Origin: Isoptericola jiangsuensis
GTDB taxonomy: Bacteria > Actinomycetota > Actinomycetes > Actinomycetales > Cellulomonadaceae
Direction: 5' to 3'
Assembly (NCBI RefSeq): GCF_002563715.1
Contig: NZ_PDJJ01000001.1
Coordinates: 992,001 to 1,056,000 of the forward strand
DNA: 64,000 bases
A model generated the notes under the pieces. It made no database searches and was not told where the DNA came from. It saw only the letters and a list, made by a program, of their open reading frames with translations. Below are positions 577 through 45,605 of the stretch, in pieces (within the stretch, counting starts at the first letter, position 1; each line of letters opens with the position of its first letter). A program made the translations under genes and the position numbers.

Positions 577-656
577 GCGCTCATCGTTCCACGCCGGGTG
601 CCGGGCTGCTGCCGGGCCGCGACCGGTCCCGCGACGGGCGACCGTGTCCGGTGTCG

Positions 657-720
657 CATCGTCCGTGCTGGAACGGAACCTCATCGGCCAGGATGAGGTT
701 CGGATCCAGCACGGACGATG
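657..720. repeat. Dispersed palindrome, copy 1
   Basis: 29-base arms (657-685 and 692-720) match at 27 of 29 positions around a 6-base loop. The outer 14 bases, CATCGTCCGTGCTG, are shared with the palindrome at 21855-21918. The copy sits alone between two co-directional minus-strand genes. It could act as a terminator, but shared primary sequence with other copies argues for a mobile or REP-like element. Confidence 0.85.
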
Positions 721-735
721 CCGGACGGGGGTGGG

Positions 736-5861: not shown

Positions 5862-6584
5862 TCAGCCGGCGGCGCGCGGCTCGACGGGCCACGCGGGGGA
5901 GGCGCCCGGGCCGTCGAGCCCCTGGTCCCGACGCCACGCGTTGAAGCTCTCGGCCCAGGCGCGGTGCGCGTCGCGCTGCGCCAGGTGCAGGGCGTCGAGG
6001 GCGACGGAGCGCAGGTCGGGGTAGCGCAGCACCAGCGCCTCCAGCACGTCGAGCGTGGCGAGCACGTCGACGTCCGCGGTGTGCAGCTCGCCCTCGCCCG
6101 TCACCCCGTACAGCTCGACGAGGTCGCCGAGGCGACGCTTGCCCCGCCGGTAGCGGTCCTGCCAGCGGTCGATGACGAGCGGGTCCAGGACCGGCGACAC
6201 GGCGCGGCCCAGCCGCTCGGGCAGGGTGGGCAGACCGTGGCGCGCCAGCTCCGCGTCGAGCAGCGTGAGGTCGAACGCCGCGTTGTACGCGACCACCGGC
6301 ACCCCGGCGCGCACGTGCTCGGCGAGGAACACGGCGATCTCCTCCAGCGCCTCGGCCGGCGGGCGACCGTGGGCGCGGGCGTGCTCGGTGCTGACCCCGT
6401 GTATCGCGGCCGCCTCCGCGGGGATCTCCACGCCCGGGTCGACCAGCCAGGTCCGGACCTCCGTCGTGAGCGGCGTGCGCAGCACGACCGCCGCGGTGAC
6501 GATGCGGTCGGTGTGCACGTCGATCCCGGTGGTCTCGGTGTCGAAGCCGAGCAGTGGCCCCGCGGTCCAGCCCGTGTCGTCCAT
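5862..6584 (-). CDS. DnaQ-like 3'-5' exonuclease (DEDDh)
   Basis: 240-residue exonuclease domain protein. The motifs are in order: LLGFDTETTG (ExoI, residues about 12-21), VVAYNAAFDLTLL (ExoII, about 105-117), and HTADVDVLATLDVLEAL (ExoIII with the catalytic His and Asp). These define the DEDDh class of DNA polymerase III epsilon-like proofreaders and RNase T-like trimming enzymes. It is not fused to a polymerase or GIY-YIG domain, so its role could be DNA repair or RNA trimming. The ATG at 6584 follows a good AGGGAAGGAA ribosome site. It is convergent with guaB and divergent from guaB3. Confidence 0.88.
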   Translation of the reverse strand: MDDTGWTAGPLLGFDTETTGIDVHTDRIVTAAVVLRTPLTTEVRTWLVDPGVEIPAEAAAIHGVSTEHARAHGRPPAEALEEIAVFLAEHVRAGVPVVAYNAAFDLTLLDAELARHGLPTLPERLGRAVSPVLDPLVIDRWQDRYRRGKRRLGDLVELYGVTGEGELHTADVDVLATLDVLEALVLRYPDLRSVALDALHLAQRDAHRAWAESFNAWRRDQGLDGPGASPAWPVEPRAAG

Positions 6585-20940: not shown

Positions 20941-21843
20941 GTGCCTGACGCCCCACCCGCCCGACGGTCGTTCTGGGCGGTCGCCCTCCAGCCGCGCATG
21001 CTCGCGATCCTGCTGCTCCTGCTGGCCGCCGCCCTCGTGTGCGGACGGCTCGGCGTGTGGCAGATCGACCGCGCCTACGAGCGCGCCAACCTCGCCGCCC
21101 AGCAGGAGGCCGCCGAGGCCGCTGCCACCGGACCCGCCGCCCTCGGCGAGCTCGTCGCCCCGCAGGCGTCGTTCCCCGGCGAGCTCGTCGGCCGCCAGAC
21201 GTGGGTCGAGGGCGAGTGGGAGCCCGACGGGCAGACGCTCGTCGCCGGACGCACCCTCGACGGCGTCGAGGGCTACCTCGTGCTCACCCCGCTGCGCGTC
21301 ACCGACGACGGCACCGGCGGCGCGTCCTGGGCCGGACTGTCCGGCGCGCCCGTGCTGCCCGTCGTGCGGGGCTGGGTCGAGTCGCCCACCCCCGACGCCG
21401 CCGCCCTCGACGTCCCCGACGGCGAGGTCCGCGTCGAGGGCTGGCTCCAGGCGTCCGAGTCCACCCTGCGCACCGGCGACGCCCCCGCCAACCCCGGCGG
21501 GCCGCCCCTCACCCAGGACATCGCCTCCTCGCACCTCGCCAACGTGTGGGACGGCCCCATCTACACCGGGTACGTCGTCCTCACCGGGTCCGACCCCGCC
21601 CAGCCCGCCGCCGCCGAGGGCGGTCCCGCGCCGCTGCCCCGCCCCGTCCTGGAGGGCGGCTCGGACGTCAACCTCCAGAACTTCTTCTACGCCCTGCAGT
21701 GGTGGGTGTTCGGGCTGTTCGCGTTCTCCCTGTGGATCCGCCTCGTCCGCGACGAGATGGCCGGCGGGCGGCGCGAGACCCGTCGTCGCGCCGACCGCAC
21801 CGACGACCCCGTCGGCCGCGGCATCGCGGGCCTGCCGTCCTGA
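20941..21843 (+). CDS. SURF1-family cytochrome oxidase assembly protein
   Basis: 300 residues with a transmembrane helix near each end ([22 protein letters not shown] at about 20-41 in two runs, [11 protein letters not shown] and GRLGVWQ; and [18 protein letters not shown] near 245-262), the SURF1 layout. [16 protein letters not shown] and [11 protein letters not shown] match the periplasm-facing domain, and [12 protein letters not shown] is the conserved C-terminal motif. SURF1 helps insert heme into cytochrome c oxidase. Leaderless GTG at 20941 with TACCGT six bases upstream. Confidence 0.92.
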
Positions 21844-21854
21844 CCCCTTTCAGC

Positions 21855-21918
21855 CATCGTCCGTGCTGACTTGGTACCTCAACTCTCCGTGTGAGGTACC
21901 AAGTCAGCACGGACGATG
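21855..21918. repeat. Dispersed palindrome, copy 2 (left border of DUF559 gene)
   Basis: Perfect 27-bp arms (21855-21881 and 21892-21918) around a 10-base loop. It shares CATCGTCCGTGCTG with copy 1 and TTGGTACCTCA with copy 3. The last three bases of the right arm are the ATG of the DUF559 gene. Confidence 0.93.
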
Positions 21919-22989
21919 CCGAAGCTGTGGATGACGCCGCCAAGGTCCGGCGCCACCTGCTCGGATGGGCGTGTGTCCAGACCCGTCGGCCCGCTTCCGC
22001 CCACGCTCGTCGGCGCCGCCCGCCGTCAGGAAGGGCTCGTCACCATCCGGCAGTGCCTGGAGTCCGGCATGTCCCGCCGACGGGTCCAGGGGCACGTCGA
22101 GCGCAAGGACTGGGAACGGCCGGCCCGCGGCGTGTACGACACCGGCCTCGTCGTCCCGACCTCCACGTCCGACGGCTTCGCCCACCGACGACGGCGCACC
22201 GCACTGCTGGGTCCGCTCAGTCACGAGGGCACGGTGGCCGTGGGCGTGAGCGCCCTCGTGCTCCACGGAGTCCAGGGTTCACCGGTCCGCTTCGTCCCGG
22301 AGGTGGCGGCACCGAGAGCCGCGCACCGGGCGCCGGACGGCCCGGTGCGGGTCCGCCGGATCCTCGTGACCGAGCCGGAACGGCTCGACGGGGTCCTCGT
22401 GGCACCCGTCGTCGACTCGCTCGCGCTCGCGATCCCGACGCTCAGCCGCGCCGACGCCGTGGCGATGATGGACTCCGCCCTGCACCAGGGCCTCGTCACG
22501 CCGGCCGGCATCGCCGGCGCGCGAGCACGGGCCACGGGCAGGCGCGGCGCGCGGCGGTGCGAACCGTGGTGGTCGGAGCCGGACGCGAGGTCGGAGTCGC
22601 CCGCCGAGTCGTGGGCACGGGTCACCTGCACGGCCGCCGGCGTGCCGCCCGACGCGGTCCAGCTCGTCGTCGTCCGGGGCGGGCAGGTCGTGGCGCGGGT
22701 CGACCTGGCGTGGATCCTGCCCGACGGCGTCGTCCTGCTGGTCGAGATCGACGGTCGTGACGTCCACTCCACCCCGGACGCGCTGCTGCACGACCGTCGC
22801 CGGCAGAACCGGATCGACACCCCGGTCACGATGATCCGCCGGTTCACCGGGACGGAGGCCAGGGACGGCACCGCCGCCCGGGAGGTGTCGGCGGTGCTGG
22901 CGCAGGCCCGCTGGCGTCCTCGGCCGGTGGCTCCCGGCCTCGCCTACTGCATCGAGCGTGCTGGGTTGGTACCTCAACCGAAGGTTTGA
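21916..22989 (+). CDS. AbiEi-like N-terminus with DUF559 nuclease-like C-terminus
   Basis: 357 residues. LVTIRQCLESGMSRRRVQGHVERKDWERPARGVY is the winged-helix start typical of actinobacterial AbiEi/DUF559 proteins (seen as LVTIRQCLESGMSRRRV and WERPARGVY). The C-terminal part has the Vsr-like PD-(D/E)xK pattern: ESPAESWARV (Glu 231), VARVDLAWIL (Asp 263), VLLVEIDGRDVHS (Glu 277 and Asp 279) and RRRQNRID. The ATG at 21916 is inside palindrome copy 2; a GTG at 21973 (codon 20) is an equally good start. The stop lies in palindrome copy 3. No other gene shares its transcript obviously. Function unknown; nuclease activity is inference from the fold. Confidence 0.82.
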   Translation: MPKLWMTPPRSGATCSDGRVSRPVGPLPPTLVGAARRQEGLVTIRQCLESGMSRRRVQGHVERKDWERPARGVYDTGLVVPTSTSDGFAHRRRRTALLGPLSHEGTVAVGVSALVLHGVQGSPVRFVPEVAAPRAAHRAPDGPVRVRRILVTEPERLDGVLVAPVVDSLALAIPTLSRADAVAMMDSALHQGLVTPAGIAGARARATGRRGARRCEPWWSEPDARSESPAESWARVTCTAAGVPPDAVQLVVVRGGQVVARVDLAWILPDGVVLLVEIDGRDVHSTPDALLHDRRRQNRIDTPVTMIRRFTGTEARDGTAAREVSAVLAQARWRPRPVAPGLAYCIERAGLVPQPKV

Positions 22990-23013
22990 GGTACCGACCC
23001 AGCACGGACGTTG
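22950..23013. repeat. Dispersed palindrome, copy 3 (right border of DUF559 gene)
   Basis: 28-base arms (22950-22977 and 22986-23013) match at 24 of 28 positions with an 8-base loop. The DUF559 stop codon (22987-22989) is at the start of the right arm. The ABC exporter gene ends 13 bases further on. Confidence 0.88.
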
Positions 23014-23025
23014 CGGAGCAGGGGG

Positions 23026-24798
23026 TCAGTCGGCCTGCCACGAGTGCCAGAGCCGGGCGTAGTCCCCGCCGGCGGCGACGAGCTCGTCGTGGGGGCCGAT
23101 CTCGGTGATGCGGCCACCGTCGACGACGGCCACGCGGTCGGCGTCGTGGGCGGTGTGCAGCCGGTGGGCGATGGCGACGACGGTGCGGCCGGACAGGACG
23201 GCGTTGAGGGACTGCTCGAGGTGCCGGGCGGCGCGGGGGTCGAGCAGGGAGGTGGCCTCGTCGAGGACGAGGGTGTGGGGGTCGAGCAGGACGAGCCGGG
23301 CGAGGGCGACCTGCTGGGCCTGGGCAGGGGTGAGGGGGTGCCCGCCGGAGCCGACCTCGGTGGCGAGGCCGTCGGGGAGGGCGGCTGCCCAGCCGCGGGC
23401 GTCGACGGCGCCGAGGGCGCCCCAGAGGGCGTCGTCGTCGGCGGTGGTGTCGGCGAGGCGCAGGTTCTCAGCCAGGGTCCCGACGAAGACGTGGTGCTCC
23501 TGGGTGACGAGGGCGACGTGCCCGCGCAGGTCCTCCAGCGGCAGGTCGACCAGCGGCACGCCGCCGACGGTGACGGTGCCGCCGGTGGGTGGGTGGATGC
23601 CGGCGAGCATGCGGCCGAGGGTGGACTTGCCGGCACCGGAGGGTCCGACGACGGCGAGGCGTTCGCCGGGGCGCAGGTCCAGGTCGATGCCGTGCAGGAC
23701 GTCCCGGCCGGGGGTGTAGGCGTAGCGGACGGCGTCGGCGCGGACGTCCTCGGCGGTGGGGACGGCGCCGGTGGCCTGCCGGTCGGGGGCGACGAGTCCG
23801 ACGCCGACGACGCGGGCGAGGGCGACGACGGCGACCTGGAGCTCGTCGAGCCAGAACACGAGGTCGAACACGGGGCCGCCCATCTGGTGGGCGTACATGG
23901 CGAGCGTCGCGACCGTGCCGACGGTGGTGAGGTCCTGGGAGACGAGCCAGGCGCCCCACAGGACGACGGCGATGGGGGCGACGGCGACGGCGGTGTCGAT
24001 GCCGGGGATGAGCCGCTGGCGCAGCCGCAGGGTGTGGGACTCGGCGTCGAACGTCTCGGCGAGGTCGCCGCGCAGCCGACGGCGCAGCCGGGTGCCGAGC
24101 CACAGCGCCTCGGTGGTGCGGGCGCCCTCGACGGTCTCGGTGATGGTGCCGTTGACGGTCGCGAACGCGGCGGACACGCGCAGGTAGCCGGGGGTGGCGC
24201 GCCGCAGGTACCAGCGCAGGGTGAGGACGATGACGGGCACGCCGACGAGCATCGCGACGGCGACGAGCGGGTCGGCGACGAACGACGCGACGAGGGTGAG
24301 GCTCAGGGTGACGACGCACACGAGCACGCGGGGGACGCCGAACCGGACGGCGTGCGCGAGCTTGTTGACGTCGTTGGTGGTGCGGGCGACGAGGTCGCCG
24401 GTGCCGGCCTTCTCCACGGTGGACAGGGGCAGCCTGGTGGCGGTGGTCAGGAACTCCTCGCGGAGCTCGGCGAAGACGCGCTCGCCGAACACCATGGAGA
24501 GGCGCTGGGCGTAGCGGGTGACGACGGCCTGGGTGACGACGGCGCACACGAGCACGACGGCGAGCGTGTTCACGCGGTCCAGGGTGGTGCCGGTGGTGGC
24601 CTCGTCGATGAACCGGCCCAGCAGGAAGGGTCCGGTGAGGCCGGCGAGCGCGGCGAGGGTGTGCAGGACGGCGATGCCGCCGAGGCTGCCGCGGTGGCGG
24701 CGGAAGAGCCGGGCGACGGTGCGCCGCACCTCGGTGGTGTCGGCGACGGGCAGCCGGCGCGGGTCGGCCGGTGCGGCCGACGGCGGGGTGGCGCTCAT
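23026..24798 (-). CDS. ABC exporter half-transporter, canonical ATP site, degenerate signature
   Basis: 590 residues: a six-helix exporter membrane domain (residues about 40-330) and an ATPase domain. Walker A (VGPSGAGKSTLGRML), the Q-loop (VTQEHHVFVG), Walker B with catalytic Glu (TLVLDEATSLLD) and the H-loop (AIAHRLHTAHD) are intact. The signature motif is LTPAQAQQVALARL instead of LSGGQ. The start ATG at 24798 overlaps the stop of the upstream partner by four bases, so the two are made as a heterodimer. The substrate (drug, lipid or peptide) cannot be told from sequence. Confidence 0.92.
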   Translation of the reverse strand: MSATPPSAAPADPRRLPVADTTEVRRTVARLFRRHRGSLGGIAVLHTLAALAGLTGPFLLGRFIDEATTGTTLDRVNTLAVVLVCAVVTQAVVTRYAQRLSMVFGERVFAELREEFLTTATRLPLSTVEKAGTGDLVARTTNDVNKLAHAVRFGVPRVLVCVVTLSLTLVASFVADPLVAVAMLVGVPVIVLTLRWYLRRATPGYLRVSAAFATVNGTITETVEGARTTEALWLGTRLRRRLRGDLAETFDAESHTLRLRQRLIPGIDTAVAVAPIAVVLWGAWLVSQDLTTVGTVATLAMYAHQMGGPVFDLVFWLDELQVAVVALARVVGVGLVAPDRQATGAVPTAEDVRADAVRYAYTPGRDVLHGIDLDLRPGERLAVVGPSGAGKSTLGRMLAGIHPPTGGTVTVGGVPLVDLPLEDLRGHVALVTQEHHVFVGTLAENLRLADTTADDDALWGALGAVDARGWAAALPDGLATEVGSGGHPLTPAQAQQVALARLVLLDPHTLVLDEATSLLDPRAARHLEQSLNAVLSGRTVVAIAHRLHTAHDADRVAVVDGGRITEIGPHDELVAAGGDYARLWHSWQAD

Positions 24799-33357: not shown

Positions 33358-33395
33358 ACGCACGCCCGGCCGGGTCCACCCGGCCGGGCGTGCGT
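33358..33395 (+). terminator. guaA terminator
   Basis: Perfect 18-bp stem (33358-33375 with 33378-33395), 43 bases after the guaA stop. Confidence 0.8.
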
Positions 33396-34219: not shown

Positions 34220-34224
34220 GCCCC

Positions 34225-34276
34225 GCGCGCGAACGGCCTGGACGCCACCGTGGTGACGTCCAGGCCGTTCGCGCGC
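34225..34276. terminator. Bidirectional terminator
   Basis: Perfect 20-bp stem (34225-34244 with 34257-34276) and a 12-base loop between convergent membrane-protein genes. Confidence 0.8.
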
Positions 34277-34303
34277 GCCGGGCATCCGGCCGGGGCGTGC
34301 CGG

Positions 34304-45563: not shown

Positions 45564-45605
45564 ACGACGACGCCCCGTGACCACGACGTCACGGGGCGTC
45601 GTCGT
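45564..45605 (+). terminator. Strong hairpin terminator
   Basis: Perfect 18-bp stem (45564-45581 with 45588-45605) with a 6-base loop. Confidence 0.8.

Follow-up and report, generated by a model that had tools for sequence, protein, structure and literature searches.

A palindrome-bounded nuclease gene of Isoptericola jiangsuensis as a candidate REP/RAYT-like element with an unrelated nuclease

Introduction

The stretch of DNA analysed in our study, hereafter the window, comprises 64,000 nucleotides of the Isoptericola jiangsuensis genome and contains a gene for a nuclease-like protein that lies between two copies of one palindrome, a further copy of which stands alone elsewhere in the same stretch. 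An earlier note, made from the letters of the window, had drawn attention to this arrangement, and our analysis found all three copies in place (Table 1). The question that the locus raises is whether the gene and its palindromes belong together and, if they do, what kind of unit they form.

Results

The unit and its boundaries

Table 1. Features of the nuclease locus, in positions of the window
Feature	Position	Strand	Description
Solo palindrome, copy 1	656..721	.	Hairpin scan and covariance-model match
Left neighbour, SURF1 family	20941..21843	+	Pfam SURF1, E 1e-29
Upstream flanking palindrome, copy 2	21855..21918	.	27-nt perfect arms, 10-nt loop; hairpin scan
Longest open frame	21916..22989	+	Begins at the ATG of copy 2 and ends within copy 3
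Probable gene, starting at GTG, 338 aa	21973..22989	+	Predicted AbiEi-like winged-helix N-terminal part and Vsr/PD-(D/E)xK-fold C-terminal nuclease
Downstream flanking palindrome, copy 3	22949..23014	.	29-nt arms, 86% complementary, 8-nt loop
Right neighbour, ABC transporter, convergent	23026..24798	-	Pfam ABC_membrane and ABC_tran

The matched palindromes measure 64-66 bp here and the whole unit about 1.16 kb; the outer arm GCATCGTCCGTGCTG is common to the solo copy and to copy 2. Folded as single-stranded DNA, copies 2, 3 and 1 reach -35.3, -28.1 and -33.8 kcal/mol, which correspond to z values of -13.1, -8.8 and -11.9, and none of 200 shuffles equalled any of them. The core pattern of the palindrome has three matches in the window, two of which are both strands of one copy, against none in 100 shuffles, and copy 1 matches a covariance model of the window type in which it is itself one of the rows. 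The 64 kb contain 31 hairpins with a score of at least 11 and a single pair of similar hairpins spaced 700-1800 bp apart, namely the pair around the nuclease gene. Further strong hairpins at 34224-34277, 33358-33395 and 45564-45605, unrelated in sequence by eye, are perhaps terminators.

The earlier note had described the gene as exactly bounded by the palindromes. Its coordinates hold: copy 2 ends with the first ATG (21916-21918), and the stop codon (22987-22989) lies within copy 3, into which the final codons of the gene extend. The two ends are not of equal value, since the gene likely starts at the GTG at 21973 and not at the ATG in copy 2, a preference that rests on the same-site orthologues in two related genomes (G139 and G140), which have an ATG at the matching place. 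The meeting of ATG and palindrome is thus probably coincidental and carries no weight as evidence for a cassette. The 3' overlap of gene and palindrome is common to loci of the same type: at L024, L054, L055, L056 and L063 the stop codon lies 63 bp past the profile match, and the downstream hairpin begins at +22 to +25 in four of them, another hairpin having been scored at L056.

An AbiEi-like protein with a predicted Vsr-like nuclease domain

Compared with Pfam, the window protein matches AbiEi_4 (PF13338) at E 4.4e-6 and REase_MTES_1575 (PF18741) below the cut-off; the AbiEi models of PADLOC match it at E 5e-12, and no NCBIfam family was matched. Among 50 family members, AbiEi_4 is found in 44 and REase_MTES_1575 in 30 at E <= 0.01. 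An AF2 model built on 50 aligned homologues has a mean pLDDT of 93.4, and among solved structures Foldseek gave it a single match at E <= 0.001, to the AbiEi antitoxin 6y8q (E 6e-4). The C-terminal domain is similar to that of the homing endonuclease I-Bth0305I (3r3p), with a TM of 0.67 of the target at a weak E of 0.64. Residues E212, D244, E258, D260 and H265 are invariant across the 50 homologous sequences, and we take them to be the acidic and histidine residues typical of the EDxHD/Vsr-like nuclease fold. The earlier family label DUF559 was rejected because the protein does not reach PF04480: this Pfam family has no match in the protein's own genome and is absent for the protein at E <= 1. 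Judging from its profiles and predicted fold, the protein is better named an AbiEi-like, Vsr/MTES_1575-like nuclease.

Three other identities were tried and rejected. No known RNA family of Rfam matched any of six loci at the gathering score, the unit had no match in plasmid records by megablast, and the protein had no relative in phage records at E 1e-5, so that neither plasmid nor phage cargo is retained. A third homologue in the window's own genome (hereafter G000), at locus L275 (C1:965171-965521, about 26 kb left of the window), is matched at profile positions 90-205 only and is probably decayed; around it stand three palindromes that belong to a different type (CGAGCATGCG and similar). 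A second lineage of the gene lies at C1:3554102 in this genome.

Matched palindromes flank homologous genes

The search covered 221 genomes of the host family, and 122 of them have a homologue at E <= 1e-20. From this list, 90 better-scoring loci were sampled (30, and 60 further down; lower-scoring rows were left out and two rows, G124 C406 and G119 C2, were skipped), and ten loci of the genus were added later, so that the resulting 100 loci represent the better-scoring part of the list, with close relatives over-represented. A matched hairpin pair with a score of at least 20 is found at 66 of these 100 loci, whereas draws across loci, with orthologues allowed among them, gave one in 15 of 400 cases; the 34 loci without a matched pair at the cut-off used include, as misses, 19 without candidate hairpins on both sides. 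With three of the 90 loci dropped for short flanks, hairpins scoring at least 14 within 450 bp occur on both sides at 40 of 87 loci and at none of the 87 adjacent control intervals, and on the single sides at 56 and 54 of the 87 loci versus 6 and 3 controls; L022-L051 stood in contig orientation in this test, which leaves the both-sides counts unaffected. When the window was taken together with nine homologous loci (143 kb), all five matched pairs spaced 700-1800 bp apart bracketed a nuclease gene, the pair being absent in five of the nine other loci. The association of the nuclease gene with matched flanking palindromes is firm.

The same arrangement reaches beyond the host family. In a sample of the order, 104 of 396 genomes have a match, and matched pairs scoring at least 24 occur at 29 of 53 loci of its other families (1/1, 11/21, 7/11, 1/7 and 9/13), the low value of 1/7 belonging to family f18. 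In a sample of the phylum, 60 of 396 genomes have a match and 12 of 29 loci a matched pair, against hairpins on both sides in none of 29 controls; the cut-off here was 22, with a looser candidate search, where the order families and the second subfamily described below were held to 24, and one of the 12 positives (L324) comes from the host's own order. Two loci of distant families in this sample, L327 and L325, carry matched palindromes of 68-97 nt with similarity scores of 89 and 50.

A second, distant subfamily, which shares 26% identity with the window protein across 273 positions, came to light as the occupant of the space between the SURF1 and ABC transporter genes in the sister species G136. 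It is present in 157 of 220 genomes, and matched pairs flank 20 of 30 of its loci (one of the 30 genes, L302, was placed by an open-frame scan), with long hairpins on both sides of none of the 30 controls. Other long palindromes, with GAGGTAGTACC arms, occur at L206 (G136) and L169 (G143) and perhaps belong to this second nuclease subfamily; at the place of L206, the window's genome holds a different palindrome. The earlier note had named two findings that would refute a tie between gene and palindrome, homologues nearly always without palindromes and palindromes equally common around unrelated genes. Neither was borne out: matched pairs are frequent in the family, order and phylum samples, and the adjacent control intervals of the family, second-subfamily and phylum loci never had long hairpins on both sides.

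Each palindrome follows its gene lineage

Palindrome similarity was compared among 61 loci with a matched pair scoring at least 24. The two flanks of one gene have a similarity of 0.64 and orthologues of at least 70% protein identity one of 0.60 (43 pairs), whereas paralogues in the same genome stand at 0.16-0.21 (18 pairs), equal to background, and genes of different genomes with less than 50% identity at 0.17-0.20. Gene and palindrome similarity are correlated (Mantel rho 0.283; none of 999 permutations was as high). Since paralogues are unlike and orthologues alike, the palindrome tracks the lineage of its gene, not the genome or its base composition. No pair of genes in the same genome is at least 70% identical among the 61 loci, and therefore the gene itself does not appear to multiply.

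Dispersed copies in the genomes

Genome-wide counts cover two palindrome families in one genus. The first, the CTCTG type, accompanies the gene in five genomes, where it has 14 (G000), 8 (G134), 18 (G136), 10-11 (G139) and 8-10 (G140) copies, strand counts of the exact pattern differing slightly. Thirteen other genomes, counted as lacking a CTCTG-type gene on the basis of listed homologues, have 0-3 copies, and the reversed-pattern control gave 0 in all 18. The difference in copy number is significant when kinship is ignored (Mann-Whitney p 0.0006); it is important to note that the five gene-bearing genomes are mostly close kin, so that copy number and gene may have been inherited together. 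The inner arms are specific to the genome, AAAGTCCGGC in G000, TTCCTCAGGA in G139 and TCCGTCAGGA in G140, and looser in G134 and G136. Their identity is 0.72 within genomes and 0.475 between them (0 of 2000 permutations), as calculated from 70 forward-strand copies with three reverse-strand-only copies omitted, among them the upstream flank of L053.

The second family, the window-type palindrome, has about 22 sites in G000 according to the covariance model, which took the place of the pattern CGTGCTG-N-CAGCACG, rejected as too loose because reversed controls were about as frequent as its matches or more so. With matches counted over both strands and divided by two, and each genome assigned according to the palindrome next to its gene, the mean is about 11.9 sites in seven genomes with the gene and 5.3 in eleven others (p 0.012). 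G134 and G136 have no window-type gene and keep about 10 and 12 sites. The window-type palindrome is thus more loosely tied to its own gene than the CTCTG type. Three copies of G000, at 6326, 4031542 and 4041089 (C1; L001, L007 and L008), lie in repeats near contig ends, and the true number may be smaller. The sequences of L001 and L007 agree completely over 3028 bp, and that of L008 appears by eye to be near-identical and inverted, although a 100-base probe had no exact match in it; a terminal repeat or an assembly duplication would account for this.

Placement and turnover of solo copies

Of 17 solo copies in G000 (L001 and L007 being identical), 14 lie within 60 bp of the 3' end of a called gene, the calls failing for L118, L197 and L199; these statements on neighbours are approximate, as the gene calls come from a simple codon-usage caller that mis-called the nuclease gene itself. 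Seven of the solos were compared with G136 and, where found, with G134. The L002 solo is missing in G136 and has another palindrome family in its stead in G134, the L190 solo is missing in both, those at L191 and L193 are present in G136 and missing in G134, and those at L118 and L138, compared with G136 only, are present there; the L195 site holds another palindrome family in G136 and none in G134. Solo copies therefore differ between sister species, and the flanks at the seven aligned sites are too diverged to show borders or target-site duplications.

The space between the SURF1 and ABC transporter genes was compared in 17 genomes. It holds a window-type unit in G000, G139 and G140; G136 and G134 have there a gene of the second subfamily, with palindromes of its own. 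In G137 (L172) and G135 (L173), the order is palindrome, GyrI-like gene, palindrome, nuclease gene, palindrome; the palindromes on both sides of the GyrI-like gene are of the same kind as those of the nuclease gene, and this neighbour may have been bracketed or carried. At this site, none of the 17 genomes lacks the gene and has exactly one cognate palindrome.

Discussion

Taken together, these results suggest that the 1.16-kb unit is, with somewhat better than even probability, a small selfish element resembling REP/RAYT systems with an unrelated nuclease, and of the readings that remain this nuclease-driven one is the best. According to excerpts of PMC7319586, the promoters of AbiEi-type proteins contain paired 23-bp inverted repeats, separated by 3 or 13 bp, to which the proteins bind, and the two 27-nt arms and 10-nt spacer of copy 2 come close to such a site. 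By analogy with AbiEi at its inverted repeats, two molecules of the nuclease protein might bind both arms of the palindrome as double-stranded DNA. The nuclease would then cut or nick inside or beside the palindrome, and repair of the break from another copy would homogenise the palindromes of a genome and occasionally seed a new one. Solo copies would persist at gene ends, where a hairpin is harmless or useful, possibly as a terminator without a U-tract, and the upstream copy may double as the operator of the gene. In mycobacteria, terminators without a U-tract are found within 50 bp of the stop codon, as described in excerpts of PMC12288462, and the host may retain solos as terminators irrespective of the nuclease.

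Some of the same facts can be read as regulation alone, in which the palindromes are AbiEi-type operators and terminators and the nuclease moves nothing: the upstream copy would serve autorepression, the downstream copy would end the transcript, and the solos would be a small regulon or ordinary terminators. The promoter repeats bound by AbiEi and the mycobacterial terminators near stop codons (excerpts of PMC7319586 and PMC12288462) agree with this, as do the grouping of the N-terminal half with AbiEi by PADLOC and Foldseek and the position of most solos at gene 3' ends in our crude calls. Even so, we regard this reading as unlikely: an operator needs no matching copy 3' of its gene, the solos are at gene ends and not at promoters, terminators of independent origin would not have in common one sequence that occurs across the genome in step with the presence of one gene, and the gene is adjoined by SURF1 and ABC transporter genes, not by an AbiEii-type toxin. 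Weak hairpins do abound in GC-rich genomes, and the number found in the window is an example. Generic hairpins of GC-rich intergenic DNA are nevertheless rejected as next to impossible, given the both-sides counts at homologous loci and their empty control intervals, the excess of pairs matched in sequence over cross-locus draws, the lone matched pair in 64 kb, and the loci of the second subfamily.

A homing gene would treat a solo as its empty target, where cutting and repair copy the whole gene in between two palindromes, so that solos are vacant or vacated sites instead of mobile repeats. The weak structural likeness to I-Bth0305I, the closest homing enzyme, points this way, and so does the recurrence of elements with different genes at the SURF1-ABC spot of several species. 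The expected gene-less genome with one cognate palindrome is missing among the 17 compared at that site, the genes have not been duplicated into solos at the 61 loci, and we therefore hold homing to be improbable, more so than regulation. Still less probable is a defence system whose nuclease attacks invading DNA while the palindromes serve to mark self or to control the system, since a single gene stands between SURF1 and the ABC transporter gene and phage records contain no relative of the protein at E 1e-5; gene-specific palindromes across a chromosome are, to our knowledge, foreign to known defence systems. On the other side are the match to the AbiEi models of PADLOC and the occurrence of Vsr-like nucleases of the MTES_1575 kind in conflict proteins, as reported in excerpts of PMC3710099.

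The selfish, nuclease-driven reading can be extended, tentatively and at somewhat less than even probability, to a broader proposal: AbiEi-Vsr-like genes within their own palindromes may form a phylum-wide selfish class independent of REP/RAYT, in which double-strand arm binding and break repair replace hairpin transposition, and may be a main source of the U-tract-free hairpins behind stop codons in these bacteria. An actinobacterial gene family that is common and unexplained would thereby acquire a role together with a target site in the DNA; as every gene lineage has its own site, legible in the genome sequence, binding and cleavage could be assayed directly. The genes and their palindromes moreover provide a collection of matched proteins and DNA sites for the study of specificity. 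If the proposal is true, evolution produced the lifestyle of REP/RAYT systems twice, the second time from an unrelated nuclease, and hairpins 3' of genes in GC-rich bacteria would have an explanation of their origin. The earlier note had supposed that a link of such proteins to palindromes was undescribed; in agreement with this, none of the openly licensed papers listed connected flanking and dispersed palindromes with DUF559, MTES_1575 or AbiEi proteins. Among the matches listed, no paper was by its title or the start of its abstract on repeated hairpins of mycobacteria, and those for the string GAGCAGACGC appeared unrelated.

Comparison with known systems

Several known systems share single features with the unit. 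In its N-terminal fold and profile and in the paired inverted repeats of its putative operator, the unit is like AbiEi of the type IV AbiE system (6y8q; excerpts of PMC7319586); it differs in the added C-terminal nuclease domain and in the matching palindrome 3' of the gene and elsewhere, and the gene for the AbiEii nucleotidyltransferase toxin is absent beside the window gene. With I-Bth0305I, an EDxHD/Vsr-like enzyme, it may have in common the weakly matched fold of the catalytic domain, and acidic and histidine residues of that kind are invariant; unlike that enzyme's gene, it lies outside any intron, intein or conserved gene, is bounded by palindromes and carries an AbiEi-like DNA-binding part. 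REase_MTES_1575 is a family that most of its relatives reach and the window protein itself does not. The near-identical copies of a whole unit within one genome that mark insertion sequences were not found at the 61 loci at 70% identity or above.

The resemblance to REP elements and their RAYT nucleases, put forward in the earlier note, holds for the layout and not for descent. RAYTs are HUH tyrosine (Y1) nucleases that act on single-stranded REPs tagged with GTAG (excerpts of PMC3116915 and PMC3733652), whereas the enzyme here is predicted to join an AbiEi-type domain to a nuclease domain of Vsr/PD-(D/E)xK fold. The protein showed no sign of a HUH tyrosine nuclease: its Pfam matches are AbiEi_4 and MTES_1575 and its best structures are AbiEi and PD-(D/E)xK-type folds. 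Neither of the two palindrome families counted carries a GTAG tag. GTAG or CTAC inside or within 8 bp of the hairpin was found at none of the 17 solos of G000 and at one of the three window copies, where it adjoins copy 3 in the coding frame; both hairpins contain it in 6 of 61 matched pairs of other loci (L033, L046, L054, L058, L064 and L065), which may be chance. The palindromes here, of about 50-95 bp and with copy numbers of about 10-20, also set the unit apart from REP/RAYT. On the side of likeness, in the REP/RAYT systems (REPtrons and REPINs) and in TIRtrons, as portrayed in those excerpts, a single-copy nuclease gene likewise lies between palindromes or inverted repeats, a family of cognate palindromes is dispersed mostly 3' of coding regions, several independent gene-palindrome pairs share a genome, and the RAYT gene stays single-copy while its palindromes spread; the concerted evolution of the palindromes is a further point in common. 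As judged from sequence, the unit is by homology no REP/RAYT system and by layout a REP/RAYT analogue.
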